This document shows positions 4,838 through 40,387 of a DNA stretch of 47,916 nucleotides, one piece after another. The stretch is from Bacteroidota bacterium (lineage in GTDB: Bacteria; Bacteroidota; Bacteroidia; Bacteroidales; UBA4417). The DNA is taken from contig JACAAZ010000002.1 in NCBI GenBank assembly GCA_013376995.1, positions 1 through 47,916 on the forward strand, read 5' to 3'. The stretch's first letter is position 1. Every line of letters begins with the position of its first letter. The position numbers and the translations under genes are program-made. A model generated the notes under the pieces. It saw only the letters and a program-made list of their open reading frames with translations, ran no database searches and had not been told where the DNA came from.

Positions 4838-5206
4838 ATGAAGACGAAAGACCGTTCGCTTGAAATCGCAGATTTGAAGGCTGTGGGCCAGATTGAGGAC
4901 AACCTTGTTCTTTTTATTGCCGGCGAGGATCCTAATATCCCTTCTTCTCTTTGTGTTCAGGCTGATTTTGGCATGCAAAAGTTTGACCAGGTACAACCCA
5001 TGGCTAACTACCTCGAATCGAATTCATACCAGCACATTCATGACGGGGACAGGCGGATATCCTACCGGCAAAGAATCCCCGAGGAAATGAATCCTGATTT
5101 GATTGCTGCCATGCTCAAGGAGTTTGCTGAAAAACGGCGCCTGGTAAAAGGGAATGAAAGCATCGAGGGCTGGGAACCTTCCTGGGAACATCCTTCTGAA
5201 GTTTAG
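4838..5206 (+). CDS. hypothetical protein, 122 residues
   Basis: No signal peptide and no membrane segment, so probably cytoplasmic. The sequence is acidic with a conserved-looking centre (QHIHDGDRRISYRQRIPEEMNP, residues about 65-86) and an amphipathic helix after it (LIAAMLKEFAEKRR). Composition and length argue for a real gene, and a promoter-like sequence lies 45 bases upstream. I recognise no family. Confidence 0.65.
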   Translation: MKTKDRSLEIADLKAVGQIEDNLVLFIAGEDPNIPSSLCVQADFGMQKFDQVQPMANYLESNSYQHIHDGDRRISYRQRIPEEMNPDLIAAMLKEFAEKRRLVKGNESIEGWEPSWEHPSEV

Positions 5207-5614
5207 AAGATTGGGCAGCTAGATTTGCAAAATGAATAAATTTTCAACAGAACAGAATTGCTTTGTTCTTTAGCTCTTTTGGTTATCCAGCATATCGGAA
5301 CTAACAGGGAGGGATATGACAACTCTCGCTGCCGCCTGTTTTTCAACTTTTAAGCTATTACTTATTTGAAACGCTCTTAATAATTTCATATATTCATCAT
5401 CTCCTGATTCCTTTCAATCATTCAAATCAGAATAAAGGTTTAGCAAGCGCACACTTCCTTTCAGAAATTAATTTATTCAGAGTCAGACCTGGAATGTGAT
5501 CATCACAGTTTGAAAACTCCAGTAATTCCCAAAATAGAATAAATTTGCTATTGATATCCATTTGAATTTATTTATCCAAAAGGAATTGACACATCGTTAT
5601 ATAATTTTATAGGT
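5207..5614. other. intergenic gap with a possible gene relic
   Basis: No intact gene. The minus strand holds a possible degraded reading frame (5270-5561). A weak hairpin AGAACA/TGTTCT lies at 5249-5269. Confidence 0.45.
5270..5561 (-). pseudogene. possible relic of a small gene (frameshift plus nonsense codon)
   Basis: From the ATG at 5561 a frame runs 44 codons (MDINSKFILFWELLEFSNCD...) to a TGA. A shift near codon 40 joins a second open stretch, interrupted once by TGA, encoding KESGDDEYMKLLRAFQISNS and ending ...SSDMLDNQKS at a TAA (5270-5272). The total of 292 bases is not a multiple of three, as expected for a frameshift. The evidence is only protein-like composition on both sides of the break, so this is tentative. 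Confidence 0.3.
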
Positions 5615-23311: not shown

Positions 23312-26300
23312 TTGAAAAGAACTACTTTTTTGGCGATATCTTTTTTTGTGATATTGCTCTTAGGAATTCAGAAGATCGGTTTACCCCAGGTTGTTATAAG
23401 CCAGATTTATGGAGGTGGGGGAAATACGAATGCTATTTACAAAAATGATTTTATTGAACTTTTTAACCGTGGAGCAGTTTCGGTGAATATTACAGGCTGG
23501 TCTGTTCAATATACCAGTGCTGCAGGTTCTTCGTGGGCATCAAATCAAACTAACATTACATCAAACGTAACCCTGGCCCCCGGGCAGTACTTCCTTATCC
23601 AGGAAGGTTCAGGCGGCTCTGTTGGTGTTACGCTGCCAACCGCTGATCTTACCGGTACTATCGGATTATCTGCTACAGCCGGGAAAATTGCCCTTGTAAG
23701 TTCAACTACCGCCTTAACAGGTACCTGCCCTACAGGTGGCTCCATAATTGATTTTGTTGGCTATGGTTCGGGAGCCAGCTGTTACGAAGGATCAGCCGCT
23801 GCCCCGGCTCCATCTAATACAACAGCCATCCTCCGCGCATCCAATGGTTGCCAGGATAATAATATAAACTCAACAGATTTTTCAACAGGAACTCCTCTTC
23901 CAAGAAATACGGCAACAACATTTAATCCTTGCTCAAACCCAATCATCACAATATCTGCTTCCGCTCTCACCGGCTTCAGCTACAGTTTTGGAACCGGACC
24001 GTCTGCAGAGCAAACTTTTAATGTTTCCGGCAGTAATCTCTCCGGCCCCATCAGTATTGTTGGAACTACCGATTTTGAGATTTCCCTTTCACCGGGAACT
24101 GGATATACAACACCATTAGTTCTTACTCCTTCATCAGGATCTGTTTCAAGCACACCTGTTTACGTACGTCTTAAAACCGGACTAGCAATAGGAACATACT
24201 CTTCAGAACTGATAAACCTCACATCTGCCGGAGCAACCAGCAAGACAGTTAGCTGTTCCGGCTCAGTAACTTCACCTGCCCTTACAGTAGGCACTATTAC
24301 AGGTTTTGGTGACCAGGTCATAAATACAACTTCTGCTGAAAAAAACTATGCAGTAACAGGTTCAAACCTTTCTGGTAACGTGGTAATTGTGCCACCTGCA
24401 GGGTTTGAAATTTCGACATGGACAGGAGCCGGTTTCGTAGCCACGAATCCAATTATCCTTAGCCCGTCATCCGGTTCTGTTAACTCAACAGTTTATGTCA
24501 GGTTCTCCCCGTCTGTTACAGGCTCTTATTCGGGGAACATCACACACAATAGTAGTGGTGCTGCACAACAAAATGTTGCTGTAAGCGGTAATGGCATTTA
24601 TAACACACCAAGCAATCATGTTTCCGGCTTTGCTGCAACAGTAAGTGATGCATCAACAATTAGTTTGTCATGGCTCGACAATAATGGTTCAGTCCCTGCA
24701 AGCGGCTTCCTGATCCTGGCAAATACTACAGGCACTTTCGCTGCCCCGGTTAACGGGACTCCTCAAACGGATGATGCTGTGCTGAGTGATGGAAGCGGAA
24801 TACTGAATATAGCGCCAGGAGTGCAATCCTGTTCCTGGACAGGTTTGTCTGCAAATACAATTTACTACTTCGTTATCTATCCTTACTCAAATGCCGGGAC
24901 ATCCATCCTTTACAAAACAACTCCAGCAGCTCCGCAATCTTCTTCCTCCATTCAAATAATCACTCAAACAATAGCCGCCTGGGTATTTGATAACACGCTT
25001 GCATCACCTGGTACTCCAACATCAGTTCCCGCTGATCTGGGCACTCAGGCCGGGACGGCAAATCTTTACGCAGATGGCACCAATGGATCTTCTTCCTGGT
25101 CGCAGGCTTCTGAACTTTCAGCATTCAGCGGAACAACACTCAATGATCCCAGGGTGGGATCAACCTTTGCAGGCATGTCATATTCCCCGCAGGGAGGTTC
25201 CGGTATTTCTGCCAATGGCAAGAGTATGATCATCAAGTTTTCAATGGCTGGTTACCAGGATCCGATTCTCTCTTTTGCAACAAGGGGAACATCCACAGGA
25301 TTTACAACTCATCAGTGGGCATGGAGTACTGATAATGTGAGCTATACAAATTTTGGGACCAATACAGCCAATACAACGGCTACTTTCCTTACCCGTACGC
25401 TTGACATGAGTTCCATCAATAACCTTGATCAGGCTTCAACTGTTTATCTTAGAATAACTTACTCCGGCGCTACCTCCAGCTCAGGAAACAACAGGATTGA
25501 TAATATTGTCCTTACAGCAACATCTGCAACTTCTGCACCTTTAACCCAGGCTCATGACCTCGTATTCAGCAATGTAGCCGGCACTTCAATGACTGTGGGA
25601 TGGACAAACGGTTCCGGAAGTAAAAGGTGTGTAGTTATTAACACGTCCAATAGCTTCACCACACCCTTAAATGGGACAGATCCTCCTGCAAGCTCAATTT
25701 ACGCTGGTAGTGGAGAGCAGGTAGTCTTTAATGGGACCGGTAATACTGTCAACGTCAGCGGTTTGTCATCTAGCACAACCTATTGGTTTAAAGTTTTTGA
25801 ATTTAATGGGACAGGGACCGGATCTAGTTATTGTACAGCTTCAGGAGTAAATAATCCGATGAGCCAGCTTACCCTCTTTGTTGCCGGGCCACCACATTTA
25901 TCTTCTCCAACTGCATCTGCAATTTCCACTAATTCAGGGATAATTGGCGGAACAATATTAAATGATGGAGGAAGTCCTCTACTGGAGCGTGGAACAATAT
26001 GGAGCATAAATTCGCCGGTGGCAATTACGGATAATAAATTGGCTGAAGGCGGTACCACAACTGGCTCATTTTCGCATTTACGATCAGGTTTGCCATCCGG
26101 TACAGAAATATTCTATGCCATATATGCAACGAATGCTCTTGGTACAGCCATTTCAAGCCAATCAAGTTTCTTCACTCTTGCTGATGAGCCTGACAGCCAG
26201 GCAATCAATTTTACCTCAGCCACACCATTGAGTTCCAGTATTACAATTACCTGGACAGACAATGATGGGATACAGCCTGCAACAGGGTTCCTCGTCCTGG

Positions 26301-27868
26301 CAAACACAACGGGGACATTTACTGCACCGGTTGATGGTGTTCCACAAACAGATGATCTTGTTCTGAATGACGGAAATGCAAAAGTCAATATATCCCATGG
26401 ACAGCAGAGTTTTACCTGGACAGGGTTAAATCCTTCCACTACCTATTATTTTTCGATTTACCCGTATACAAACAGCGGTTCCAGTATTGATTATAAAAAC
26501 GGTGCTACAGCTCCTGTAACTACTGCAACAACTACGGGAGCTGTATATTCATGGATTGGCTCTGACAATGGGGCCTGGACTACAGCAACCAATTGGTCAC
26601 CATTACGGGCAACACCCAGCTCAAATGACATACTTCAGTTCAATGATGGCACAACACGCACGGTAACAGCTGTGCCAAACCAGACTGTTGCAAAGCTTAT
26701 CATTTCAGGTAATTCAAAAGTGACATTTGCAGGAAGCAACACATTGACCATTTCCGGCACATTGAACCTGTCGGGCGGATTACTTTCCTTATCTTCGGCA
26801 AACCTGTTACTTGGTCCTTCAGCTTTTATTGCGGGGGCTCCTTCTGCTTCAGCCATGATTATTCCAACCGGTACCGGGCAGTTAAGGAAAGAGATACCTT
26901 CTGCTGGAGGAAGCTTTACATTCCCGGTTGGCGATAATACCGGAACCCCTGAATATTCACCTGTTACAATTTCTTTTACGACAGGTTCATTTGGAACGGG
27001 AAATTATGTTGGCATTTCTCTTTCGAATAGCATGTATCCTGGGATACCATCCGGGGTAAATTATTTGAATCGTTACTGGGCCCTTTCATCAAGCGGGATT
27101 TCAGGCTTTAACTGCAATGCTTTGTTCAACTATCCGGTTGCTGATGTTACCGGAAACGAGGGTTTTATTTCATGTGTCCAGATGACACCGTCACAGATTA
27201 CTTATGGCGTAACAAATGCAATTTTGCATCAGCTAACTGCAGGAAATCTAAGCAGCTTTGGAACATTCACAGGCAGTCAGGTTGACAAATCATTAATTCT
27301 CACTCTATTCCTGGAAGGGTTATATGCAGGAAATGGTATAATGAATAAGGCACAGGATATTTCAGGAAACAAGTTTCCGGGAAATACTGCCGACCAGGTG
27401 ATTGTTGATTTGCACAGTGGAGATGCAGGTAATTATTCCACCATCGAATATTCATCCGGCCTTATTAACCTGAGCACTTCAGGCCAAGCAGAACTTCCGG
27501 TCCCGGCAACACATTCCGGAGCGTATTATATTACGATCCGGCACAGAAACAGCATTTCAACAACAACAGCTTTGCCTGTATCCTTTTCAGGAAATTCCAT
27601 CAGCTATAACTTTTCTGACAATTCAACAAAGGCATTTGGGAACAACCTTATAACTTCTGGTGACGGGAGATACCTGATTTATGGGGGAGATGTGAACCAG
27701 GATGGATATATAAATCAGCTGGATATGGAAGCTGTAAGATTGGATTCAGAAGGCTTCCTTTCAGGTTATATTTCTTCTGATGTAAATGGTGATGATGTTG
27801 TGGATGAATCAGATATGATAATAATAGATAACAATACCGCAAACACGGTATCAACGCTTACCCCCTGA
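23312..27868 (+). CDS. giant modular surface protein with lamin-tail domain and dockerin-like C terminus
   Basis: 1518 residues. Start is TTG: the signal peptide (MKRTTFLAISFFVILLLGIQ) begins exactly there, no ATG is available, and it parallels the MKKTTFIAL start of the next gene. Modules: lamin-tail (LTD) 27-205; two PSAEQTF-type Ig-like units 207-430; Fn3 431-545; a jelly-roll-like domain 553-740 (DNTLASPGTPTS... NNRIDNIVL); Fn3 745-855; a Bacteroidota Fn3-like unit 865-960; Fn3 963-1070; a beta-helical G8-like block 1080-1325 (WIGSDNGAWTTATNWSP ... QLRKEIP ... FPVGDNTGTPEYSPV); and a C-terminal module 1326-1518 with two calcium-type loops DVNQDGYIN and DVNGDDVVD. There is no T9SS sorting domain. 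Probably a cell-surface adhesin or complex component. Confidence 0.88.
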   Translation: MKRTTFLAISFFVILLLGIQKIGLPQVVISQIYGGGGNTNAIYKNDFIELFNRGAVSVNITGWSVQYTSAAGSSWASNQTNITSNVTLAPGQYFLIQEGSGGSVGVTLPTADLTGTIGLSATAGKIALVSSTTALTGTCPTGGSIIDFVGYGSGASCYEGSAAAPAPSNTTAILRASNGCQDNNINSTDFSTGTPLPRNTATTFNPCSNPIITISASALTGFSYSFGTGPSAEQTFNVSGSNLSGPISIVGTTDFEISLSPGTGYTTPLVLTPSSGSVSSTPVYVRLKTGLAIGTYSSELINLTSAGATSKTVSCSGSVTSPALTVGTITGFGDQVINTTSAEKNYAVTGSNLSGNVVIVPPAGFEISTWTGAGFVATNPIILSPSSGSVNSTVYVRFSPSVTGSYSGNITHNSSGAAQQNVAVSGNGIYNTPSNHVSGFAATVSDASTISLSWLDNNGSVPASGFLILANTTGTFAAPVNGTPQTDDAVLSDGSGILNIAPGVQSCSWTGLSANTIYYFVIYPYSNAGTSILYKTTPAAPQSSSSIQIITQTIAAWVFDNTLASPGTPTSVPADLGTQAGTANLYADGTNGSSSWSQASELSAFSGTTLNDPRVGSTFAGMSYSPQGGSGISANGKSMIIKFSMAGYQDPILSFATRGTSTGFTTHQWAWSTDNVSYTNFGTNTANTTATFLTRTLDMSSINNLDQASTVYLRITYSGATSSSGNNRIDNIVLTATSATSAPLTQAHDLVFSNVAGTSMTVGWTNGSGSKRCVVINTSNSFTTPLNGTDPPASSIYAGSGEQVVFNGTGNTVNVSGLSSSTTYWFKVFEFNGTGTGSSYCTASGVNNPMSQLTLFVAGPPHLSSPTASAISTNSGIIGGTILNDGGSPLLERGTIWSINSPVAITDNKLAEGGTTTGSFSHLRSGLPSGTEIFYAIYATNALGTAISSQSSFFTLADEPDSQAINFTSATPLSSSITITWTDNDGIQPATGFLVLANTTGTFTAPVDGVPQTDDLVLNDGNAKVNISHGQQSFTWTGLNPSTTYYFSIYPYTNSGSSIDYKNGATAPVTTATTTGAVYSWIGSDNGAWTTATNWSPLRATPSSNDILQFNDGTTRTVTAVPNQTVAKLIISGNSKVTFAGSNTLTISGTLNLSGGLLSLSSANLLLGPSAFIAGAPSASAMIIPTGTGQLRKEIPSAGGSFTFPVGDNTGTPEYSPVTISFTTGSFGTGNYVGISLSNSMYPGIPSGVNYLNRYWALSSSGISGFNCNALFNYPVADVTGNEGFISCVQMTPSQITYGVTNAILHQLTAGNLSSFGTFTGSQVDKSLILTLFLEGLYAGNGIMNKAQDISGNKFPGNTADQVIVDLHSGDAGNYSTIEYSSGLINLSTSGQAELPVPATHSGAYYITIRHRNSISTTTALPVSFSGNSISYNFSDNSTKAFGNNLITSGDGRYLIYGGDVNQDGYINQLDMEAVRLDSEGFLSGYISSDVNGDDVVDESDMIIIDNNTANTVSTLTP

Positions 27869-28021
27869 TCTGAAAACTATGACTTTTGTTGCACAAATAA
27901 CTACTAATTTCGCAGCCAAATTATCTGTTTTTCAAAGCAGGAATTCTCAGATTTCATCGTATATTAGACCCCCCAATTTCAGACTGAAATCCATATTAAA
28001 ACATAATAATTAAAATAAAAT

Positions 28022-28051
28022 CCAAAAACCCAAACCCAAATCCAACAACTT
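28022..28051 (+). promoter_or_regulatory. A/C-rich leader before a giant surface gene
   Basis: Thirty bases made of CCAAA/CCCAAA units directly before the ATG, without guanine and so unstructured. Similar leaders precede the genes at 35903 and 44324. Confidence 0.4.
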
Positions 28052-31000
28052 ATGAAAAAAACTACTTTTATTGCCCTATTTACTGCGGCAATTTTGCTAA
28101 TTGGCTTCCACTCGAGCAGCTGGGGGCAGGCAATCCTATATGAGGATTTCAATTACACAGTTCCCGGTAATATTGGTGGAAACACTACTGCAAGTGGAAC
28201 AACCAACAACAACTGGACAACTCATAGTAACACGAAAGTTGGCACCGATGATGTTGTTGCTTCAAGTTTGACTTATACAGGTTTAAGTAATCCCACAGGA
28301 AATAAAGTATTTATTCCCGGAAATAACACAACTACACCGCGTGATGTAAACAGGGGCTTTACCAGTACTGCAACTGTGCTGTATTATTCAGCATTGATTC
28401 AAGTAGTTGATAACACTCAACTTGGAACTGCTGATGACTATTTTATGAACTTTGGAGCAACTTCAGGAGCAACTGTAACAAGCTTTGGAGGAAAATTGGG
28501 AATCAAATCTGTTAATGCAGGCGCCAATTTCAGACTTAGCATCAATAACACATCTGGTGGTACAGTCACATTTACTGAATTCGCAACAGATCTTTCTTTT
28601 GGTACTACCTATTTAGTAGTAGTTAAATATGATAGAAGTGTGAGTCCTACTGTTGCTAGTTTATGGGTTAATCCTGTTTCACTCGGGGGAACCGAACCAG
28701 CCGGGTCTGTATCAAATTCTAGTGGTACAGGTACCTTTGCTGCTTTTGCATCAATCTGTCTGAGAAATAGTTCAGGTACACCAAAAGCCAACATTGATGA
28801 AATCCGCATTGGAACTACCTGGGCTGATGTTACTCCGGGTGTTGCTGTTGTTGCTCCTACAGTTACCACGCAAACTCCTACAACAATTGGTACAACTTCA
28901 GCTACCGGTAATGGTAACATCACTGCAACCGGCGGAGAAAACCCCGGTACACGTGGTTTTTGCTGGGATCTTTCTACGAATGCTGACCCAACAACCGCTT
29001 CAGCACATACAACTGAAACCGGCAGTTTCGCAGCTGGTGCTTTTACAGGATCTATTACAGGCCTGACTGTAAATACCAGTTATAAAGTCCGTGCCTATGC
29101 TATCAATAGTGCAGGTACAAGCTATGGAGATCCGCTTACCTTTACCACTTCAGCCTCTCCTTCAATTACAGTTTCCACAAACACTCTCACAGGATTTACA
29201 TATACCGGAGCAGGGCCTTCAGCTGAACAAACCTTTACTGTTTCTGGTACGAACCTTACAGCTCCCCTTGTTGTTGCACCAGCAACTGATTATGAAGTTT
29301 CTCTTTCAACCGGCACTGGATTCACAACACCAATCTCTTTGACACCGAGTTCAGGAACAGTATCAACTACAACCATTTATGTACGTCTTAAAGGTGGTTT
29401 GGCTATTGGCACCTACAGTACTTTAGAAAATATTGTTGCTTCTTCAACTACAGCATCGCAAACAATAGCTTGCAGCGGTTCTGTCACTGCACCAGCTCCT
29501 GCAATTACACTTGGCGCTACTTCCTTGACTTTTGGAAGCCAAACCGTCAACACCACCTCAGCAGAGCAAACCTATACCGTTTCAGGAATCAACCTGACAG
29601 CTGATGTTACGGTTACGCCCCCCTCAGGATATAAAATCTCCACCACTACCGGCACAGGTTATGTAACCACACCGATAGTACTTACACAGACCGGTGGCAC
29701 CCTGGCTACAACAAATATCTACGTTGTGTTTGCCCCAACACTTGCTCAGTCCTATCCTGGAAACATCACCCATGTAAGTGGCGCTGTTACCCAAAATGTG
29801 GCCGTCACCGGAACTGGTGTAAATGCAATCACCAATCCTGTGCCACAGGCAATCCCTTATTCACAGGATTTCTCAGCTCTTGTCTGGGCATCAACAACCT
29901 ACCCGGCCGGATGGCAAGGATGGCAAATCGGCTCACCCAGTGCAGCTTATTCCACTGCTGCCCCTACAGCTGACAGGGTTTTAGCACCTTCAGTAACTGC
30001 AAACAGTACTTCCGGTAACGTCAACAATTATAATGGCGCTGTTGGATTCCTGAATACCTCTTCACTTGATTTATCCTTAGTGCTGGCTATCGATGCAACA
30101 GGCGCTTCCAATGTCAACCTGGCTTATGATATCAGCACTATCCGGAACCCTTATGATGGTACAACCAATACCCGTATCAACGAAGTTTCCCCTCAATACA
30201 GAATTGGTACCAGTGGTGCTTTCACCACCATAACCGGTTTCGAATACCAAAATAATACAACTCTGCAAACTGGATCTGTTACCACTCCTCAAAATGTGGT
30301 GACTAAAACCTTAGTACTTCCTTCAGCATGTGATAACCAATCTATCGTCCAGATCAGGTGGGCTTCCAAACAGGTTTCAGGAGCAGGAGGAAGACCAAGT
30401 TTTGCAGTGGATAATATTTCTGTAACCAATGGTGGCTCTGCCACTGTTGCAGCTCCAATATTTGCACCTCCGGGTGGAAATTATGTAACTAACCAGAGTG
30501 TAACTATTTCCTGCAGCACTCCAAGTTCTGAGATTCGTTATACAACCGACGGAACTGATCCTACTGCAACATCAACTCTTTTTAATATTTCTACACCAAT
30601 TTTAGTTAATGCTACAACAACCCTCAAAGCAAAAGCATTTGCAGCAGGGATGACAGCCAGTGCGACAGTTACCGCAGTATATACTTTCCCTGTACAGGTT
30701 ACTTCGATTGCAGCATTGCGCGCCGGGTTAACAAACGGGACAGTATATAAACTTACGAGCCAGGCCATTGTTACCTATCATCGCCCTTCAAACCTTGCAA
30801 ACCAGATTTGGCTTCAGGATGCAACCGGCGCTATTGTTACCTATGACGTAGGTGGTAATATAACTACAGATTATCAAATTGGTGACGGCGTAACCGGATT
30901 GACAGGAACAATACAATCATATAACCAGTTGCTTGAGCTCATCCCATCTGTTGGTGCTGATCCAGGTCCTGCTTCGTCAACAGGAAATACCATAACACCA

Positions 31001-34000
31001 ATTGCCAGAAGTTTATCTACCCTAACTTCAGCTGATCAATCCAAACTTGTATCCATTCCGAATGTTTCTTTCACCAATCCTACAGGGAATTTTGCCTATG
31101 CTCAGGTAGCAGGTACCCAGGCAGGTATTGCTTATCCCATCACGGATAATAATGGTTCAGGTACTGGAACATTCCAGACTTTGTTATCGGAGGCTGATTA
31201 TATCGGAAGCCCAATACCAACCATTCCGCAGAAAATTGTTGGATTAGTTGATCAATATGGGGCCAACATTACAATTACACCTCGTGTTGCTGCAGATATG
31301 ACCCCGTTTGCACCATCATGGACTTCAGGCTGGCCAAAAGCAGAAAATGCAAGCCAAACCGTATTTACAGCTAAAGTAAATATCGATGTTCCCGGTACAG
31401 CTTATTTTGTAGTTCTGCCAAGCGGAGCTCCAGCTCCAACTGCCTTGCAGGTAAAGAATGGCCAGAATGCAGCCGGTGTTGCCCTGGCATCCAACCTTTT
31501 TGGAACCATCCCTTGTGCAGCCGGAAGTACTGAATATGTTGCTCCTGTAACTGGTTTAACAGCTGCAACCACCTACAATGTTTACTTCGTTGCAGAAGCT
31601 TATACTACACTACAAGCTGCTCCGGTCATGGTTCCGGTTACCACTACGCTTGGGGGAACTCCTCCGGTTGTATTGTCTCCAACCGCCACATCCATTACTG
31701 ATGTAAGCGCTATTCTAGGTGGAGATATTTCATCAAACGGCGGTCAGCCTGTTCTTGAAAGAGGAACTGTATGGAGCACAGCGACACCTGTTCTTGCTAC
31801 AGACCATAAGCTTGCAGAAGGCGGAACAGCCATTGGCGTTTTCTCACATCTCCGCACCACACTCCCAACCGCCACGCATATCTATTATGCTGCCTATGCT
31901 AAGAATGCCCTGGGAACAACCCTCTCATCAGAAGGTAGTTTCTATACACTCTCATCAGAACCCACCAACCACGTAACAGGATTAACTGCATCGTCCAACA
32001 CAACAACTACAGTTCTTGTATCATGGACTGATGCTACTACAGGAGCTGTTCTTCCAGAAAAATACCTGATAAAGGGTAGCAATGTCAGCTATGCAGCAAT
32101 TACTGACCCTGTTGATGGTACTCCTGAAGCAGATGGAGGATTGGTTTATAATGTTGCACAAGGAGTAGGAAATCACACATTCACCGGTTTAATATTGGGT
32201 ACTCCATATTACTTTAAGATATACCCATATACCGGTTCCGCTGCTACTATCAACTATAAAACCACTGCAACCGTTCCACAGGCTACAGCGACAACACTCT
32301 CTGCAGTAACTTACACCTGGTCAGGTGCCGACAATGGATTATGGACAGATGCGACTAACTGGACTCCAAACAGGACCGCTCCGGACATCCAGGACCGTTT
32401 GGTATTTAATGATAATACTACCAAAACCGTAACGGGTGTAACCACTCAATCGATCGGACAATTACATGTAGTTGGTACAACTACAGCCGTAACCCTTGTA
32501 GCTGCCGCAACAGGAACTGTAGTTACTATCAGTGGTTTGGTAGGAAGCGCTGACCTCATCGTAAATCCGGGTTGTGCGTTAAACCTTTATGGAACCAACA
32601 CTCTTTCACTGACATTGGGAGCATCTGCAACCGGATCTATTGATGGGAATATGACTTTCTCTTCAACGGCCAGTACAGCTCATAGGCTGATTTCCGGTGC
32701 AGCAGGGGCCATTACATTTAATAACGGATCTGTATTTACTGCCGGCGCCTTCTTCAATGGAAACGCATTTGGAACACTTCCGTTAAATTCGGTTATCTTC
32801 ATGCCCGGATCAACTTATGTCCACTTCTCTGGTAGCAGCCCATTTGGTGCTTCTCAGCCAAACAGTGTTGTTGTTTTTCAACATGGAAGTCTTTGCAAGG
32901 TTACTGGCCCTGTAACCCCTAGTTACTCCGGCAGGACATATTCCAATCTTGAATACGACTATCCAACTGGAATTTTCACACAAACAGGAGCTTCTGCTGT
33001 TGTTATGGATAACTTAACCGTTACAAACGGCACCTTGAATTTTGGTGTTACAGCCATTCCTGGACATACAATTAAGGGTAATATCACTGTAGGAGCAGGA
33101 GGTATTCTTAATTTCAATCCTGGTTCAGCTTCAACTATCACTCTTGGCGGAACAGGCAACCAGACTATTTCAGGAACCGGTGCCATTTCAGGGAATGCAA
33201 ACCTCAATCTTGTTGTAGCGAATGGTTCAGGTGTAACCTTCGATAACAATATGACCCTTGATGGAATGATCACCTTGAACAGCAATAATAACATCGTTCT
33301 CGGAACGGGCAACCTTACACTTGGTACAGCTGCCACCATTTCAGGCACCTTCTCTGCTTCAAGCATGGTAATAGCTTCAGGAACAGGGCAGTTAAGGAAA
33401 ACTTTCTCTGCTACTTCTGCCACCAGCTACACATTCCCTGTTGGAGATAACACAGGCACTCCCGAATATTCCCCGGTTAGCCTTAATTTTTCCACTCCTA
33501 GCTCAACCAGCGGTTATGTAGGTGTTAACCTTGTAAATTCAGCTTATCCTTCGGTAACCGGTGATCATATTGCCCGTTACTGGAATCTTTCCACATCCGG
33601 ACTCACAGGATATACCTGCAGTGCACAGTTCAACTATGTTCTTGCTGATGTATCAGGAACTGAAAGCAATATCTATTGCTACCGGGTTGACCCAACTGTC
33701 AATCTCTTCAGTGCTGCCAACACAACTTCACATTTCCTTACAGCTACCGGCCTTACAGGATTCGGAACATTTACAGGCAAGGAACAACCTCCTACAACCA
33801 AAACCCTGAACCTGAAGATTTTCCTTGAAAGTTTGTTTAACGGCACCAACATGAACCAGGCTATGGACATGACTCCAACACCAAAGTTCACTGCCCCTGT
33901 TGCTGACCAGGTTACCGTAGAATTACACAATACATTTGCCCCGTATGATATGGTTCTTACCTTCAGCAATGTTAATGTGAATATAGATGGAACCGCTCCT

Positions 34001-34381
34001 ATTACTACTGTTCCGGGAGCATTAACAGGAAGCTACTACATTGTAGTAAAACACCGCAATAGTATAGAAACCTGGGATGCTACCCCTGTCAGTTTTTCCG
34101 GCTCAGGACCTTTCAGCTATGATTTCACAACATCTGCTGATAAAGCTTTTGGCAATAACTTAAAATCAATGGGAAGCATTTTTGCACTTTTTGCAGGAGA
34201 TGTTACCCAGGATGGTGTTGTCGATGGTTCTGACATGGCTAATGTTGATAATTCAAGCACTGCCATTCTCTTAGGTTATACTACCGACGATGTAAATGGT
34301 GACGGAGTTGTTGACGGCTCAGATATGGCTATTGTTGACAATAACGCAACTGCCATTGTTCAGGCAGTTAGGCCTCAATAA
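28052..34381 (+). CDS. giant modular surface protein (2109 residues) with dockerin-like C terminus
   Basis: Signal peptide 1-26 (SSWGQ). Modules: a lectin-like or LamG-like jelly roll 27-262 (ILYEDFNYTVPGNIGG ... IDEIRIG); Fn3-like 268-370; a PSAEQTF pair 371-600, homologous to the same pair in the preceding protein; a second jelly roll 605-795 ending FAVDNISV; a chitobiase-C-like module 800-885 (PPGGNYVTNQSVTI... YTTDGTDPT); an OB-fold/DUF5689-like domain 886-1090 (LTSQAIVTY... IWLQDATGAIVTY); further Fn3-like units to 1410; a beta-helical block 1420-1910 opening YTWSGADNGLWTDATNW; and the shared C-terminal module 1915-2109 with DVTQDGVVD and DVNGDGVVD. No T9SS sorting domain. It lies 183 bases after the preceding giant with no terminator between them. 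Confidence 0.88.
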   Translation: MKKTTFIALFTAAILLIGFHSSSWGQAILYEDFNYTVPGNIGGNTTASGTTNNNWTTHSNTKVGTDDVVASSLTYTGLSNPTGNKVFIPGNNTTTPRDVNRGFTSTATVLYYSALIQVVDNTQLGTADDYFMNFGATSGATVTSFGGKLGIKSVNAGANFRLSINNTSGGTVTFTEFATDLSFGTTYLVVVKYDRSVSPTVASLWVNPVSLGGTEPAGSVSNSSGTGTFAAFASICLRNSSGTPKANIDEIRIGTTWADVTPGVAVVAPTVTTQTPTTIGTTSATGNGNITATGGENPGTRGFCWDLSTNADPTTASAHTTETGSFAAGAFTGSITGLTVNTSYKVRAYAINSAGTSYGDPLTFTTSASPSITVSTNTLTGFTYTGAGPSAEQTFTVSGTNLTAPLVVAPATDYEVSLSTGTGFTTPISLTPSSGTVSTTTIYVRLKGGLAIGTYSTLENIVASSTTASQTIACSGSVTAPAPAITLGATSLTFGSQTVNTTSAEQTYTVSGINLTADVTVTPPSGYKISTTTGTGYVTTPIVLTQTGGTLATTNIYVVFAPTLAQSYPGNITHVSGAVTQNVAVTGTGVNAITNPVPQAIPYSQDFSALVWASTTYPAGWQGWQIGSPSAAYSTAAPTADRVLAPSVTANSTSGNVNNYNGAVGFLNTSSLDLSLVLAIDATGASNVNLAYDISTIRNPYDGTTNTRINEVSPQYRIGTSGAFTTITGFEYQNNTTLQTGSVTTPQNVVTKTLVLPSACDNQSIVQIRWASKQVSGAGGRPSFAVDNISVTNGGSATVAAPIFAPPGGNYVTNQSVTISCSTPSSEIRYTTDGTDPTATSTLFNISTPILVNATTTLKAKAFAAGMTASATVTAVYTFPVQVTSIAALRAGLTNGTVYKLTSQAIVTYHRPSNLANQIWLQDATGAIVTYDVGGNITTDYQIGDGVTGLTGTIQSYNQLLELIPSVGADPGPASSTGNTITPIARSLSTLTSADQSKLVSIPNVSFTNPTGNFAYAQVAGTQAGIAYPITDNNGSGTGTFQTLLSEADYIGSPIPTIPQKIVGLVDQYGANITITPRVAADMTPFAPSWTSGWPKAENASQTVFTAKVNIDVPGTAYFVVLPSGAPAPTALQVKNGQNAAGVALASNLFGTIPCAAGSTEYVAPVTGLTAATTYNVYFVAEAYTTLQAAPVMVPVTTTLGGTPPVVLSPTATSITDVSAILGGDISSNGGQPVLERGTVWSTATPVLATDHKLAEGGTAIGVFSHLRTTLPTATHIYYAAYAKNALGTTLSSEGSFYTLSSEPTNHVTGLTASSNTTTTVLVSWTDATTGAVLPEKYLIKGSNVSYAAITDPVDGTPEADGGLVYNVAQGVGNHTFTGLILGTPYYFKIYPYTGSAATINYKTTATVPQATATTLSAVTYTWSGADNGLWTDATNWTPNRTAPDIQDRLVFNDNTTKTVTGVTTQSIGQLHVVGTTTAVTLVAAATGTVVTISGLVGSADLIVNPGCALNLYGTNTLSLTLGASATGSIDGNMTFSSTASTAHRLISGAAGAITFNNGSVFTAGAFFNGNAFGTLPLNSVIFMPGSTYVHFSGSSPFGASQPNSVVVFQHGSLCKVTGPVTPSYSGRTYSNLEYDYPTGIFTQTGASAVVMDNLTVTNGTLNFGVTAIPGHTIKGNITVGAGGILNFNPGSASTITLGGTGNQTISGTGAISGNANLNLVVANGSGVTFDNNMTLDGMITLNSNNNIVLGTGNLTLGTAATISGTFSASSMVIASGTGQLRKTFSATSATSYTFPVGDNTGTPEYSPVSLNFSTPSSTSGYVGVNLVNSAYPSVTGDHIARYWNLSTSGLTGYTCSAQFNYVLADVSGTESNIYCYRVDPTVNLFSAANTTSHFLTATGLTGFGTFTGKEQPPTTKTLNLKIFLESLFNGTNMNQAMDMTPTPKFTAPVADQVTVELHNTFAPYDMVLTFSNVNVNIDGTAPITTVPGALTGSYYIVVKHRNSIETWDATPVSFSGSGPFSYDFTTSADKAFGNNLKSMGSIFALFAGDVTQDGVVDGSDMANVDNSSTAILLGYTTDDVNGDGVVDGSDMAIVDNNATAIVQAVRPQ

Positions 34382-34393
34382 TTTGAGTAAATT

Positions 34394-34443
34394 ATTCGAA
34401 GAAATTCCCGCTTGCTAACGCGGGAGTTTCTTCGAATTCTTTT
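34394..34443 (+). terminator. strong terminator after the 2109-residue gene
   Basis: An 18-pair stem (34394-34411 with 34420-34437, one G-T pair), an 8-base loop and then TCTTTT, 13 bases after the stop. Confidence 0.85.
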
Positions 34444-34602
34444 AATATCGAACGCCCCCTTTTCTATCTCGTTCTTTGCTTTGTTGATTATTTTATTTCC
34501 CATTGTAAACCAAGAAAATAAACCTTGTTTTATCGAGGATATGAAAACATGCAGGTATTTATCATTTTTTCCCTTTTGGACCCATAATATTCTGAATAGT
34601 AA

Positions 34603-34610
34603 TATATTTG
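34603..34610 (+). promoter_or_regulatory. -7 promoter box for the 382-residue and scaffold genes
   Basis: TATATTTG, exact TAnnTTTG, 86 bases before the ATG at 34696; a TTG lies at 34576, a little further away than usual. Together with the terminator upstream it marks a new transcription unit. Confidence 0.45.
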
Positions 34611-34695
34611 TTTCTAGCATATTTTACGATTGGTCAGCTTCCTTCTCTCCTCAAACTCTTGTTTCAGATTAGCGAAAATCATTGAAACCCCAGCC

Positions 34696-35844
34696 ATGAA
34701 AAAAAAAGCTAATTTCTCGTCATATATAATCTTATTGATCCTCATTTTTGGTGGTTCATTAAATACATTTGGGACCAATCCTACCTATTCGTGTGAAATT
34801 CGAAATGGTAGTTTTATTAACGCCCAAACTTTTGAATTTGATATTTATCTTACGCAAACTGGTGCTTCACAGCTGGAGCTTGCAGGGTTCAATACTGGCA
34901 TTTTACTGAACACTGGTTTTGTAAATGGGGGAATAATTACTCCTTCTTTTTTATCAGGTTCAGAATTAACAAGTTCACAGGTGCCCCAGCATATTGCTTA
35001 CGATGCTTCATACAGGTGTGTGAAAATTGCTCCCCGAACCCCTCCAAGAGATTATACTACCGGGCTTTCTTCGGGAACTATTATCAGTAATACGACCGGC
35101 ACTAAAGTATGCCGCGTCAGGCTTGAAAATTCAACAAGCTTTGGAACTGATCCTATGAATTACACCTGGAGCATGAGCCTGATGCCTTATCATACGGTAG
35201 TGGCGGCTTTCATACCGGGGAATACACATCCTGTCAATATTGCCGTAACATCGAATTCATCTCATTCCAAATCTGAAAATCTTTTCCTTTATCTCGAAGG
35301 ATTATATGCTACTGGAATTGGTAATCATAAAGCTCAGGACGAAAATGGTGATCATTATCCTGGTCCTGTTGCAGATAATATTTCAGTTAAACTTGCTGAA
35401 GCTTCATTCCCCTATTCACCGGTATTCAGTGATGACAACGTTCCTTTATATTCGAACGGGAAATGCAGTATCTCCATACCAGGCTCATTAACTGAGTCTT
35501 ACTATATTGTCATTCATCATCGTAACAGTCTTGAAACCTGGAGTTCTGCACCTGTTTCATTTACCTCCGGAATTATCAATTATGATTTCAGCACGGCTGC
35601 TACACAGGCCTTTGGAAACAATCTCAAATCAATTGGCGGTGGAATTTTTGCTATCTTTGGCGGGGATGTTTCCCAAGACGGAGTTATTGATGGCTCGGAT
35701 ATGGCTTCGGTGGATAATGCTTCCACAGCAATAATACATGGTTATTTCCCCAGCGATGTCAATGGAGATGGCGTAGTAGATGGATCAGACATGGCTTTGG
35801 TTGACAATAATTCAACTTCGGTTGTTACATTAATTAAACCATGA
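34696..35844 (+). CDS. surface protein with cohesin-like N domain and dockerin-like C module (adaptor candidate)
   Basis: 382 residues from the ATG at 34696; 22 extra codons upstream are not needed because MKKKANFSSY starts a complete signal peptide (1-27). Residues 28-187 are homologous to residues 28-190 of the next protein: NPTYSCEIRNGS, FEFDIYLTQTG, GFNTGILLN, NGGIIT, then CVKIAPRTPP, IISNTTGTKVCRVRLEN and YTWSMSL. The alternating strand pattern is what a cohesin-type beta sandwich would show (inference). Residues 193-382 are the C-terminal module shared with the two giants, with loops DVSQDGVID (324-332) and DVNGDGVVD (354-362). Having both ends makes it a plausible adaptor. Only 58 bases separate it from the next gene. 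Confidence 0.82.
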   Translation: MKKKANFSSYIILLILIFGGSLNTFGTNPTYSCEIRNGSFINAQTFEFDIYLTQTGASQLELAGFNTGILLNTGFVNGGIITPSFLSGSELTSSQVPQHIAYDASYRCVKIAPRTPPRDYTTGLSSGTIISNTTGTKVCRVRLENSTSFGTDPMNYTWSMSLMPYHTVVAAFIPGNTHPVNIAVTSNSSHSKSENLFLYLEGLYATGIGNHKAQDENGDHYPGPVADNISVKLAEASFPYSPVFSDDNVPLYSNGKCSISIPGSLTESYYIVIHHRNSLETWSSAPVSFTSGIINYDFSTAATQAFGNNLKSIGGGIFAIFGGDVSQDGVIDGSDMASVDNASTAIIHGYFPSDVNGDGVVDGSDMALVDNNSTSVVTLIKP

Positions 35845-35902: not shown

Positions 35903-38900
35903 ATGAAAAAACCGAAACTATTCCTTTTTTGGATGATAACGGCTTTCCTGATGCTTTCAAGCAGTATCAGCTCCCTGGCCCAAAATCCAACTTACATCTG
36001 TTCTCTTCGGAATGACGTCCAGGTATCTCAGACCGAGTACCAATTTGATGTCTATATTCAACGTACTGGACCAACAGTCTTCAAATTGGCTCAATTCCAG
36101 ATGGGTATCAACGTAAACCCAGCCATTAAGAATGGTGGAACCATTACTGTAACATCAGTTATTGGAACCTCTACTCTTACTAACACTGGCCAGGTTCCTG
36201 ATGATACAAAATTTTCTTTCAATGATACCAAAAACTGTATCATTGTAACCCCTGTTTCTCCTCCCGGAGCTGCAAATGCTTCTATCATTTCAAACGTTGC
36301 TCCAGGTACTTGTTTTATAAGAATCCGGGTTTCGAATTCCGTTCCTTTTGGTACTGCTCAGCCAAACCTCACATGGAGCTTTGCTCTTGCTAATGGATAC
36401 CAAACTAAAATGTTCGCTTATGTTGGTTCTACCAACACTGATGTTACCGTTCAAGCTTCACATATTACGTCTCCCCTCGTAAATCCTATTCTCAACCCGC
36501 CTTTGCCTCCAACTGCGTATGCTGTTACTGGCGGCGGTGCTTATTGCCAGGGGACTACCGGTTTACCCGTTGGCCTTGCAAACTCTGAAATAGGAACTAC
36601 CTATACTCTTATCAAGGATGGAAATCCTACTGCAGTTACCCATGCAGGAACTGGTTCAGCATTTAACTTTACTCCCAACCAATTCTTCGGAACTTATACA
36701 GTTTCAGGGCAAAACGCTATTGGTACAACAGCTATGACAGGAAGTGCTGTCATTACGGAAACGCCTTCAGCTCCTGTTAGTGTTGCCATCGTTGCGGATG
36801 CTTTGAGTGTTTGTGCCGGAGCTACTGTCAACTTTACGGCAACGCCTACCAATGGTGGTGCTGCTCCTACTTACCAGTGGTATGTAAATGCTGCTCCTGT
36901 TGGAACAGGACTGACAACCTTTTCATATGTTCCGGCAAACAATGATCAGATCTCGGTGGTTATGACCTCGAATCTTCCTGGTTGCCTCATGAACAATCCA
37001 GCTACTTCTAATATTATAACTGAAGCTGTTTCTGTTCCTGGCCCAGCAGGTGTCTCTATTGCTGCCAGTGCTAATCCTTCTTGCGGCACCAATACTGTTA
37101 CCTTCACAGCCACTCCTGTCAACGGCGGAACCCCAAGCTACCAGTGGTATTTAAATGGTAACCCGGTTGGCTCCAGCCTGCCTACTTATACATATACTCC
37201 TACTACAGGTGACCAGGTTTATGTTGTTATGACATCCAGTTTGCTTTGTGCAACTGCTAACCCTGCAACATCAAACATTGTTACCATGACAGTAAATGTT
37301 CCAGTTCCGGTTAGTGTAACTATGTCCCCTTCAACAAATAACGTTTGCTCTGGAACTCTTGTAACTTTCACTGCAACTCCAACTAACGGAGGAACACCAT
37401 CCTATCAGTGGTATAAAAATGGAAATCCAGTTGGAACAAACCAGGCAACTTACGCTTATGCACCGGCTAACAACGACCAGGTTTATGTTGTAATGACCTC
37501 AAGCATTGGCTGTACGACTGGTAACCCTGCAACTTCGGCTACTTCAACCATGACCATCTTTGCTTTACCTACACCTACACTGGCAGGACCTGCAACTATC
37601 TGTGCAACAACTACTGGCAATGTATATACTACTGAGGCTGGTTTTAGCAACTATGTATGGACTGTTTCTGCAGGAGGCTCAATTACGAGTGGTGGTACAA
37701 ATTCATCGAATACTGTAACTGTTACCTGGAATACTGCTGGAGCACAAACAGTAAGTGTAAATTATACAAATCCCAATAACTGTACGGCCGTTAGCCCTAC
37801 CGTTTACAATGTAACAGTAAATGCATTGCCTGCTCCAACCTTAACAGGTCCTGCTACCATTTGTGCAGGGACAGCAAGCAATGTTTACACTACACAGGCT
37901 GGCAACACCAATTATGTTTGGTCAGTTTCAGCAGGTGGTTCCGTTACTGCAGGTGGTACTGCTACCAGCAATACTGTTACTGTAACCTGGAACACTCCCG
38001 GGCCTCAGACTGTATCTGTAAATTACACTAATTCCAATTCCTGTACAGCCGCAGCACCTACTGTTTATCCGGTCACTGTTAATGCTTTGCCAGTTCCAAC
38101 TATTTCCGGATCGGCTTCAGTATGTCTAAATTCAACCGGTAACATATATACCACGGAAGCTGGTATGACAAGTTATGTATGGAATGTCGTGGGAGGAACA
38201 GTAACTGCCGGTGGAACAGCCACCAGCAATACTGTGACAGTTACCTGGACATCAACCGGTGCCAAAACTGTTTCGGTAAACTACACCAATGCCAACAGCT
38301 GCACTGCAGTTACTGCTACCGTTTATAACGTAACTGTTAACCCTCTCCCCGTACCAACAATTACAGGCCCGGCCACAGTTTGTGCAAGCAGTACAGGCAA
38401 CGTGTATACAACCCAGGCAGGTATGAGTGGCTATAACTGGGCAGTGTCTGCTGGAGGTAACATTACCGCCGGTGCCGGAACCAGTTCAATAACCGTGACA
38501 TGGAACACTGCCGGTGCACAGACTGTATCTGTAAACTACATCAATGGTAATGGCTGTACGGCAGCAAGTGCTACTGTAAACAATGTTACAGTTAATGCTC
38601 TTCCTGTTCCAACCATCACCGGTCCAACTCCAGTAGGTGTAGGATCTACCCAGGTTTATACTACTCAAACTGGTATGACCAATTATGTTTGGAGTGTTTC
38701 TGCAAATGGAACCATCACTGCCGGTGGAACAGCTACAAGCAGCTCTGTTACAGTTCTTTGGAATACTGCCGGAGCAGGAACCGTATCTGTTAATTACACC
38801 AACGCCAATAGCTGTTCAGCTCTTGCGCCAGTTTCATTCCCGGTTACAGTTCTTTCTGTTCCTCCTCCAGCAGGCACAATCACTGGCCCAACCTCTGTTT

Positions 38901-40387
38901 GCCAGGGTGCCACAGGAGTTCAATTTACTGTTCCTGCAATTCCAAATGCTACTGGTTATGTCTGGACATTGCCTGTCGGAGCAACAATTGCAACCGGAGC
39001 CAACACAAATACTATCACGGTTAATTTCTCCTACACAGCCGTGTCAGGCGTGATCACTGTTTATGGAACCAACCAATACGGAAATGGCGGACCATCACCT
39101 AACTTTGCTATAACCGTGTTACCTTCACCTGTTCCAACCATTACGGGTGATAATGATCTTTGCCAAAGTTCAGATTATTACTATTATTCCACAGAGCCTG
39201 GTATGACAAATTATGTTTGGAATATCAGCCCTAACAGCGGTACGATTACATGGGTAACTGGAAGCAACCAGGTTATGATTTTCTGGAATTCACCAGGTGC
39301 TCATTGGGTAAGCGTTTCCTATACCAATGGCAGTGGATGTACTGCTGGTACTCCAACTGTCTATAATGTAACCGTTCATCCTCTTCCAGGAGCTGCCGGA
39401 ACAATTAGTGGGAATGCACATGTTTGCGCCGGGACCAATGGCGTAACCTATTCAATTGCCTCCGTTACCAATGCAACTTCATACACCTGGACTGTTCCAA
39501 ATGGAGCTACAATCGCTTCAGGAGCAACCAGCAATACAATAACGGTTAATTTCTCATCGACTGCAGTTTCCGGCAATATCATAGTAACCCCGGTGAATGC
39601 TTGTGGTAATGGCCCGGCTTCTGCTCCATTCGCAGTAACTATTGATCCTGTTCCAGCCGCAGCCGGAGCTATTACTGGACCAGCAGCTATTTGCGAAGGC
39701 ACCCAGGGTGTTGTTTATACAGTTGGAACCATCACCAATGCTACAGGTTATTCATGGACTGTTCCTGCTGGCGCAACAATTGTGTCTGGCGGCAATACCA
39801 ATAGTATTACTGTGAATTTCGGAGTTCCCGGTTCTGGTGTCATTACTGTTAATGGTACAAATAGCTGTGGAAATGGCGTATCTTCCAGTATGAATGTTGT
39901 TGTGAACCCAATTCCTGCAACCCCGGTTATCACTCTATCCGGTTACACTCTTACCAGCAGCGCAGCTGTTGGAAACCAGTGGTACAGGAATGGTGAGATC
40001 ATAGTTGGTGCTACAGGACAATCCTACACAGCTCCCAATACAGCATATTATTATGTTGTTGTAACCATCAACGGATGTAGTTCCGACACATCCAACAATA
40101 TCCAGGTTCTGTATGAAGGAATCAGTGAACTTAACGTTCAGAAAGTTTCTGTATATCCTAACCCGAATAACGGACGTTTCACTTTATCTGTGACCACTGC
40201 AGCCAAAGAAAACTTTGACCTCAGGATTCTGAATAATTTGGGTATTTCTGTTTTCGAGGAGAAGAACCTTGTTATCGATGGCAAATTAAATGAAGTTATC
40301 GACCTTAAACATCTGCCAAATGGTGTTTATTCAGTTATCCTGAATAATTCCGACAAACAGATAATCCGCAAGATCGTTATCGAATAA
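35903..40387 (+). CDS. T9SS-anchored Ig/PKD repeat protein (scaffold candidate)
   Basis: 1494 residues. Signal peptide 1-26. N-terminal domain 28-190 homologous to the preceding protein (NPTYICSLRNDV, YQFDVYIQRTG, NGGTIT, CIIVTPVSPPG, LTWSFAL). A short link, then three Ig-like repeats of about 88 residues (VCxGxxVTFTATPxNGGxPxYQWY) and nine PKD-like repeats of about 87 residues (ITGPATVCA..TGNVYTTQAGM.NYVW, TVTVTWNT.GAQTVSVNYTN). Another Ig-like unit (about 1345-1410) precedes a T9SS type A sorting domain 1415-1494 (VSVYPNPNNGRF ... LPNGVYSVIL). It is expected to cross the outer membrane through the T9SS and be fixed to the surface. Followed by a strong terminator. Confidence 0.9.
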   Translation: MKKPKLFLFWMITAFLMLSSSISSLAQNPTYICSLRNDVQVSQTEYQFDVYIQRTGPTVFKLAQFQMGINVNPAIKNGGTITVTSVIGTSTLTNTGQVPDDTKFSFNDTKNCIIVTPVSPPGAANASIISNVAPGTCFIRIRVSNSVPFGTAQPNLTWSFALANGYQTKMFAYVGSTNTDVTVQASHITSPLVNPILNPPLPPTAYAVTGGGAYCQGTTGLPVGLANSEIGTTYTLIKDGNPTAVTHAGTGSAFNFTPNQFFGTYTVSGQNAIGTTAMTGSAVITETPSAPVSVAIVADALSVCAGATVNFTATPTNGGAAPTYQWYVNAAPVGTGLTTFSYVPANNDQISVVMTSNLPGCLMNNPATSNIITEAVSVPGPAGVSIAASANPSCGTNTVTFTATPVNGGTPSYQWYLNGNPVGSSLPTYTYTPTTGDQVYVVMTSSLLCATANPATSNIVTMTVNVPVPVSVTMSPSTNNVCSGTLVTFTATPTNGGTPSYQWYKNGNPVGTNQATYAYAPANNDQVYVVMTSSIGCTTGNPATSATSTMTIFALPTPTLAGPATICATTTGNVYTTEAGFSNYVWTVSAGGSITSGGTNSSNTVTVTWNTAGAQTVSVNYTNPNNCTAVSPTVYNVTVNALPAPTLTGPATICAGTASNVYTTQAGNTNYVWSVSAGGSVTAGGTATSNTVTVTWNTPGPQTVSVNYTNSNSCTAAAPTVYPVTVNALPVPTISGSASVCLNSTGNIYTTEAGMTSYVWNVVGGTVTAGGTATSNTVTVTWTSTGAKTVSVNYTNANSCTAVTATVYNVTVNPLPVPTITGPATVCASSTGNVYTTQAGMSGYNWAVSAGGNITAGAGTSSITVTWNTAGAQTVSVNYINGNGCTAASATVNNVTVNALPVPTITGPTPVGVGSTQVYTTQTGMTNYVWSVSANGTITAGGTATSSSVTVLWNTAGAGTVSVNYTNANSCSALAPVSFPVTVLSVPPPAGTITGPTSVCQGATGVQFTVPAIPNATGYVWTLPVGATIATGANTNTITVNFSYTAVSGVITVYGTNQYGNGGPSPNFAITVLPSPVPTITGDNDLCQSSDYYYYSTEPGMTNYVWNISPNSGTITWVTGSNQVMIFWNSPGAHWVSVSYTNGSGCTAGTPTVYNVTVHPLPGAAGTISGNAHVCAGTNGVTYSIASVTNATSYTWTVPNGATIASGATSNTITVNFSSTAVSGNIIVTPVNACGNGPASAPFAVTIDPVPAAAGAITGPAAICEGTQGVVYTVGTITNATGYSWTVPAGATIVSGGNTNSITVNFGVPGSGVITVNGTNSCGNGVSSSMNVVVNPIPATPVITLSGYTLTSSAAVGNQWYRNGEIIVGATGQSYTAPNTAYYYVVVTINGCSSDTSNNIQVLYEGISELNVQKVSVYPNPNNGRFTLSVTTAAKENFDLRILNNLGISVFEEKNLVIDGKLNEVIDLKHLPNGVYSVILNNSDKQIIRKIVIE
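36773..37559 (+). repeat. three tandem Ig-like coding repeats
   Basis: Units of about 265 bases begin near 36773, 37049 and 37307. The encoded core VTFTATPxNGGxPSYQWYxNGxPVG is nearly the same in each, while DNA identity is reduced at third positions. Confidence 0.75.
37567..39925 (+). repeat. nine tandem PKD-like coding repeats
   Basis: Units of about 262 bases start near 37567, 37822, 38083, 38349, 38603, 38861, 39124, 39386 and 39650. Units 1-5 and 7 follow one pattern (VYTTQAGMxNYVW); units 6, 8 and 9 follow a second (NATGYxWTxPxGATIxxGxxTNxITVNF), so the array mixes two subtypes. Two further copies of the first subtype occur in the nuclease gene at 40967. Confidence 0.75.

Follow-up and report, generated by a model that had tools for sequence, protein, structure and literature searches.

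The stretch of DNA analysed here, called the window, comprises 47,916 nucleotides of contig JACAAZ010000002.1 from a Bacteroidota bacterium (assembly GCA_013376995.1; Bacteroidales, UBA4417). Three of its proteins, encoded on the forward strand at 23312..27868, 28052..34381 and 34696..35844, end in a common module of ~190 residues. Judged from sequence, this module is probably an X-dockerin-like docking tail belonging to a cellulosome-like assembly of the Bacteroidota that is anchored through the type IX secretion system (T9SS). The tail would be a docking unit, made of a ~124-residue part (X part) and a ~60-residue dockerin-like pair of calcium-loop/helix repeats, and it would plug cargo proteins with signal peptides non-covalently into receptor domains of other surface proteins. 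The candidate receptors are PF00963 cohesins or an N-terminal domain, here called NT. At the C-terminus of most receptor proteins there is either a T9SS tag, with which they would be exported and anchored (anchors), or the docking module itself (adaptors), by which assemblies could be chained. The anchor's T9SS tag would take the anchor out, and docking would hold cargo and adaptor.

The initial annotation had placed the three related ends at 27290..27868, 33800..34381 and 35272..35844, and these positions were correct, all three being C-termini of forward-strand open frames. That they form one family was confirmed by pairwise identities of 44% (E 3e-45), 45% (E 1e-44) and 52% (E 4e-61) over the full length of ~190 residues, and the motifs quoted at the time are present in all three copies. 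In copy 1, the X part covers ~27290-27664 and the dockerin-like part ~27665-27868. The paired calcium-type loops had been described as about 30 residues apart; in all three copies the second loop begins exactly 30 residues after the first, the loops being DVNQDGYINQLD (27689..27724) and DVNGDDVVDESD (27779..27814) in copy 1, DVTQDGVVDGSD (34199..34234) and DVNGDGVVDGSD (34289..34324) in copy 2, and DVSQDGVIDGSD (35665..35700) and again DVNGDGVVDGSD (35755..35790) in copy 3. All six loops have D at positions 1, 5 and 12, N/S/T at position 3 and D/N at position 9. Type I dockerins (PF00404) are built from two loop-helix repeats in tandem, in which loop positions 1, 3, 5, 9 and 12 hold acidic or polar ligands, and in X-dockerins (XDoc) an Ig-like X module stands directly before the dockerin.

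A profile of the three copies gave 40 matches in the genome of the window (5.05 Mb, 43 contigs), a number that ruled out chance or coding bias as the source of the likeness. Full-length copies made up 37 of them; the remaining three comprised one short frame (C1:340152, 118 aa) and a pair of divergent copies (C1:3614 and C1:4807). When the surrounding DNA was read for frames, the module ended at most 3 residues from the stop in 36 of the 37 full-length copies. The lone internal copy (C14:63277-63834, L059) is followed by ~600 residues with Fib_succ_major domains and is perhaps a later fusion. Five related genomes yielded 87 further distinct full-length copies as a best-match subset (13 from G014, 25 from G001, where a copy retrieved twice counts once, 25 from G011, one from G010 and 23 from G054), all of them at most 16 residues from the stop. 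Altogether, 123 of the 124 distinct full-length copies examined are C-terminal. Among the matches listed for other records, twelve copies in metagenome-assembled genomes (MAGs) of Bacteroidales, Bacteroidetes and Ignavibacteria (L031-L035) end at the stop and one (L036) has 15 residues behind it; L037-L041 match the dockerin part only and were excluded from the module alignments. L031 and contig G001:C497 are probably the same record and thus not independent.

The make-up of the module was studied with a profile of the 37 copies, which was searched against 177,635 distinct PDB sequences. It gave 19 matches at E≤0.1, all within profile positions 114-183 and most of them named dockerins or cellulosomal enzymes. 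The top match was 8x39_A (E 9e-6); 8x39 and 8x3a are named serine protease, yet were aligned over two dockerin-like stretches. Other matches were 2vn5_B (E 1.8e-4), 8zvk, named AaBgIC, and as the last one 2jnk (E 0.098), which is named hyaluronidase and which we take to be a dockerin-bearing fragment. The same picture was obtained with the three window copies only at E≤1, apart from two insignificant extras, an EF-hand carrier protein (E 0.83) and a phage baseplate protein (E 0.19), the latter being the sole match to the X part. The dockerin-type match spans module residues ~125-183, and residues 1-124 are the X part. The X part matched no Pfam model over cut-off in the scans made; among the PDB matches at E≤0.1, it is touched only by one dockerin alignment, which begins at position 114. 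An X-only search of the genome recovered exactly the 40 places of the module; the X part does not occur without the dockerin part in this genome. The dockerin part does occur apart from X, with PF00404 over cut-off at C22:4227, 8678, 13057, 17712 and 33169, at C12:341200 and at C43:141745.

If two equivalent binding faces are matched to a partner encoded in the same genome, their positions should agree among the copies of one genome and diverge from genome to genome, in register between the two repeats. Columns were analysed in 37, 25, 25, 13 and 23 copies from five genomes. The mean within-minus-between-genome identity was 0.153 in the dockerin part versus 0.059 in the X part (permutation p 5e-5), and 0.067 versus 0.016 (p 5e-5) for the four genomes of one genus only; both p values are optimistic because columns were treated as independent though they are not. 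The per-column values of the two repeats correlated with r 0.83 at an offset of 30, and the coefficients lay between -0.31 and 0.39 at eight other offsets (26 to 34). Across genomes, the calcium positions 1 and 12 were the same (D12 invariant, D1 nearly so), and positions 2, 7, 10, 11, 13, 14, 16, 17, 18, 20, 21 and 23 differed. Positions 10, 11, 17, 18 and 22 are presumably the recognition positions of type I dockerins; position 22 hardly differed between genomes. The pattern suggests two equivalent binding faces that would be tuned to a genome-specific partner. Ligand position 5 differed as well: at the G054 loci (e.g. L078 and L082) the consensus loop is DLDQGGWVDSDD, with G replacing D, and calcium binding may therefore be weaker in the G054 modules.

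Cohesins of the family PF00963 are the known partners of dockerins. The genome of the window has 18 PF00963 matches at E≤1, 15 of them over cut-off. Two scaffoldin-like proteins (946 and 951 aa) carry three PF00963 stretches and a terminal module, and each adjoins a protein of 1782 or 1910 aa with one cohesin and a T9SS tag. Such a pair, a protein with three to four cohesins and the module beside a protein with a cohesin and a T9SS tag, was found at 6 places in 4 genomes, the pairs in the relatives measuring 945/1783 aa in G014, 1133/1726 and 796/647 aa in G011, and 881/1843 aa in G054. All six tags pass the PF18962 cut-off, the weakest with 27.2 versus 27 bits. The relatives' cohesins were found at these loci with a profile built from the cohesins of the window's genome, and the loci were picked for close cohesin and module matches; they illustrate the arrangement and say nothing of how common it is. 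In the 1782- and 1910-aa anchors, a dockerin-type match immediately precedes the anchor's cohesin (L046, C12:341200-341364; C22:33169-33333), and this stretch might fold back on that cohesin. At L049 (C1:3614-4126 and 4807-5325), cohesin-bearing proteins terminate in two divergent modules that have WVPNFG-type repeats and possibly a second specificity; a protein with cohesin and T9SS tag is encoded nearby.

Module and cohesins were counted in 60 relatives, the genome of the window included. The module was present in nine, namely in 5 of the 16 genomes of the genus (40, 42, 36, 15 and 4 matches) and in four genomes of the order outside it (41, 6, 1 and 1 matches). These nine carriers had 17, 8, 12, 6, 4, 17, 6, 4 and 5 PF00963 matches. 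At least four cohesin matches were found in 9/9 carriers versus 1/51 other genomes (Fisher p 7e-10), and for any cohesin the p value was 9e-5. In a phylum sample of 395 genomes, which was searched with a wider module profile (A7, E≤1e-8), 42 had the module, and PF00963 was present in 28 of these 42 versus 100 of the 353 others (p 2e-6).

A feature beyond the initial annotation is the N-terminal domain NT, which is common to the protein with module copy 3 (34696..35844, ATG at 34696; NT at 34768..35271) and to the next protein downstream (35903..40387; NT at 35975..36499). The former consists of a signal peptide (by eye), NT and the module and is a putative adaptor; the latter, of 1494 aa, has NT, PKD_6 repeats and a T9SS type A sorting domain (40151..40381, PF18962 with 52.4 bits in the six-frame search) and is a candidate anchor. 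With the genes at 23312 and 28052 they form a row of four on one strand, with intergenic gaps of 183, 314 and 58 bases, which would encode two cargo proteins, an adaptor with NT and module, and a T9SS-tagged anchor with NT.

NT was present in 6 of the 60 relatives, all of them module carriers (6/9 versus 0/51, p 2e-6), and within the genus in 5/5 carriers versus 0/11 non-carriers. Twelve genomes of the phylum sample had it, including G215, G295 and G353, at frequencies of 9/42 in module genomes versus 3/353 (p 1e-7). In five of the eight other phylum genomes that have NT and the module (G231, G295, G326, G346 and G353), an NT gene and a module gene are immediate neighbours; in G137, G215 and G424 the two matches are on different contigs. 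In an Ignavibacteria MAG (L034), the protein that comes after a module protein has NT and a T9SS tag. The order cargo, NT with module, NT protein was seen in the window and in G001:C211, its first two members also in C39 of the same genome as the window and in G010:C582, and its last two also in G014:C523; the last gene of the G001 and G014 arrays is cut by the contig end. Among 29 NT proteins in the fetched loci, ten had the module at or near the end, eleven a T9SS tag over cut-off and four a weaker T9SS-like end; two were cut by contig ends, two had neither module nor tag, and none had both. A lone NT domain in a frame of 209 aa, with neither tag nor module, was observed at L196 (C12:160590-161078). 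In the scans made, NT reached the cut-off of no Pfam model, and no PDB sequence matched it at E≤10.

These data bear on the alternative that survives best, though we regard it as rather unlikely: the module would dock to PF00963 cohesins only, and NT would be an unrelated adhesin domain that shares operons with it. PF00963 is the established dockerin partner and the recurring gene pairs of cohesin proteins fit this. The frequent adjacency of NT and module genes argues against it, as do two genomes of family f80, G215 and G295, which have strong modules (6 and 4 matches among the matches listed, best E 1e-52 and 5e-50) and NT, but no PF00963 match at E≤0.001. A further-reaching extension of the docking reading has two parts, and we hold the combination to be doubtful. 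NT would be a new class of dockerin receptor that, in part of the phylum, works independently of PF00963, and untagged cargo would dock onto T9SS-tagged receptors in the periplasm and cross the outer membrane together with them. By such hitch-hiking through the T9SS, one secretion tag could serve many proteins. Piggyback or hitch-hiker co-export is known in principle for other folded-protein routes (PMC9251779); no T9SS case was found in a limited literature search.

Whether the module is a docking domain or an export/anchor signal had been left undecided by the initial annotation. The docking half of this proposal is backed by the dockerin matches in the PDB, by cohesins in the same genome and, in places, in the same operon or protein, by co-occurrence and by the symmetric lineage-specific change in the repeats. 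The other half was not upheld as far as a T9SS signal is concerned, since SprA (TIGR04189) is present in 59 of the 60 relatives and the module in nine, and since the T9SS tags sit on receptor-type proteins; the module is not simply tied to the T9SS. The absence of a T9SS tag from the three window proteins was confirmed with the Pfam and NCBIfam tag models at E up to 1, and the tag on a neighbour is real, the protein at 35903-40387 matching PF18962 with 45.3 bits and TIGR04183 with 35.6 bits. Coincidence of module and tag was seen in none of the 37 module proteins of the genome (PF18962 and PF13585 of Pfam, at E≤0.01 for 34 proteins and at E≤1 for those of the window; the NCBIfam scan covered the three window proteins). 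Module proteins do need some route to the outside, but it is improbable that the module itself is the export signal, that is, an alternative C-terminal domain of a new type read by the T9SS, in which the loops would be a calcium part that stabilises it. This idea would account for the nearly invariable C-terminal position, for signal-like N-termini in 35/37 proteins without a match to T9SS tag models, and for SprA in 9/9 module carriers. Apart from the distribution of SprA, it is opposed by at least 150 ordinary T9SS tags (PF18962 matches) in the same genome, by the one internal copy at C14:63277 and by the symmetric lineage change at dockerin positions, which a conserved translocon does not explain. 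As a T9SS tag, the module is supported neither by family models nor by its distribution. A different type of dockerin is found together with the T9SS tag: four frames of 1642, 1453, 1429 and 480 aa at C22:3.3-18.7 kb have a PF00404 dockerin shortly before the tag and no match to the X part.

The putative cargo proteins of the window are a protein of 1518 aa (23312..27868) with a signal peptide (by eye), LTD and fn3 domains and module copy 1, and a protein of 2109 aa (28052..34381) with CHB_HEX_C_1, DUF5689 and fn3 domains and module copy 2. Among the 37 module proteins of the genome, fn3, PKD, Ig-like, BACON, GEVED, kelch and LTD domains prevail. Enzymes are represented by a papain-like peptidase, GH13, GH57, an esterase-like domain and two C39-like peptidases, next to CBM96 and weak starch-binding-like matches. 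No Pfam match to GH5, GH9 or GH48 was obtained for these 37 proteins. A classical cellulosome was rejected on this cargo content, as plant cell wall enzymes do not dominate. A hydrophobic N-terminal segment was detected by a crude hydrophobicity rule in 35 of the 37; of the two exceptions, one frame is cut at a contig end and one misses the charge criterion. The adhesin-like character of most cargo (fn3, PKD, Ig, BACON, GEVED) and the likeness of copies within a genome would also suit a tail without a partner that serves large adhesins as a calcium-stabilised stalk or C-terminal cap and has spread through duplication and gene conversion, but this is very improbable given that the module co-occurs with cohesins and NT and that the lineage-specific positions concentrate in the dockerin part with a register of 30 residues.

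Several points weigh against the reading as a docking tail with cohesin or NT receptors. In hmmscan, the three window proteins stayed under the PF00404 cut-off with 18.5, 16.7 and 21.2 versus 22.9 bits; they passed it with 30.2, 31.1 and 31.1 bits in a six-frame search in which neighbouring half-matches were summed, and formal PF00404 membership of the module is therefore borderline. Single weak PF00404 matches mean little, since 9 of 14 control genomes have them (over cut-off in 2). The relatives' copies used for the position and column statistics are a best-match subset. Gene-family expansion alone can raise within-genome identity, but it should then affect the X part equally. Three of the nine carriers are weak, namely G018 (6 matches) and G046 and G055 (one each), with best E values of 2e-6, 1e-7 and 1e-17, and these three are without NT. 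With the six strong carriers only (best E≤1e-50, a threshold set afterwards), at least four cohesins were found in 6/6 versus 4/54 genomes and NT in 6/6 versus 0/54. Some cohesin is present in 15 of the 51 module-free relatives. In the phylum sample, 12 of the 42 module genomes have neither PF00963 nor NT; ten of them match the module only at E 1e-10 to 3e-19, and G239 (6e-44) and G191 (3e-23) are strong. The lack of PF00963 in G215 and G295 counts here as well. Three of the twelve NT genomes of the phylum sample are without the module, and the NT matches of G137 (E 6e-4) and G349 (E 4e-4) were not recovered by the iterated profile; leaving these two out, NT is present in 8/42 versus 2/353 genomes and 8 of 10 NT genomes have the module (p 3e-7). 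The association tests ignore shared ancestry. Finally, NT was aligned with cohesins by hhalign, using 3 and then 35 NT sequences, and the alignment was colinear but insignificant (probability 1.2%, P 0.042 local and 0.013 global). Scans for PF00963 were negative for ten proteins or segments with NT (E≤10) and for both NT proteins of the window (E≤1); neither hhalign nor Pfam bore out the idea that NT is an ordinary cohesin.

Cohesin and dockerin modules outside cellulosomes, also outside the Firmicutes, were reportedly found in a study of 2009; to our knowledge, it described no X-dockerin tail family or T9SS-tagged receptor set of the present kind. Among the closest known systems is the clostridial type II cohesin/X-dockerin system of the Clostridium thermocellum CipA type, which likewise has a partner module before the C-terminal dockerin, a scaffoldin with several cohesins and a dockerin, and separate surface-anchored receptor proteins. 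The system described here differs from it in that its X part is without a PDB sequence match at E≤0.1, in the candidate extra receptor NT, in the anchoring by T9SS tags instead of Gram-positive devices and in the mostly adhesin-like cargo with few enzymes (GH13, GH57, papain-like, C39-like, esterase). With the T9SS sorting domains of type A (PF18962, TIGR04183) and type B (PF13585), the module shares its C-terminal place on signal-peptide proteins of the same genome, and it is set apart from them by the lack of any match to their models (Pfam for all 37 proteins, NCBIfam for the three of the window). A cellulosome-like system was also predicted for Ca. Stygibacter (Cloacimonadota), with signal-peptide proteins ending in dockerins and a scaffoldin-like cohesin protein with a T9SS-type C-terminal domain (PMC8542988). 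That system belongs to another phylum and its dockerin-bearing enzymes are degradative; the passages considered mention neither an X part nor NT (PMC8542988). In cockroach-gut Bacteroidota, some cells were noted to have dockerin matches but no cohesins (PMC10266427). The tail was not named in the titles and abstract starts of the open-licence literature searched, supplementary files and most subscription papers being outside the scope.

As far as these comparisons go, the undescribed X part, the undescribed candidate receptor NT and the proposed T9SS anchoring of a cohesin/dockerin-type assembly in the Bacteroidota appear to be new. One genome, with relatives in and beyond its genus, encodes the same docking tail on 37 proteins, and its T9SS-tagged receptor-type proteins belong to gene pairs that recur. 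If the docking reading is true, plug-in assembly can build T9SS surfaces, a large class of untagged secreted proteins would be explained and the route of tagless proteins to the outside would become directly testable.

Some other genes of the window were inspected. An antisense ORF at 32959-33423 was judged by eye to be a by-product of the forward-strand gene. Downstream of the candidate anchor, tandem endonuclease I proteins are encoded at 40967-42646 and 42700-43854 (PF04231, 296 and 233 bits); both have PKD_6 or fn3 domains and, by eye, signal-like N-termini, and the Pfam scan gave neither a T9SS tag nor a dockerin match for them. A GH13 alpha-amylase with CBM26 and T9SS tag is located at 7324-9408 and, together with GH13, GH57 and the weak starch-binding matches in the cargo, may point to the use of alpha-glucans.

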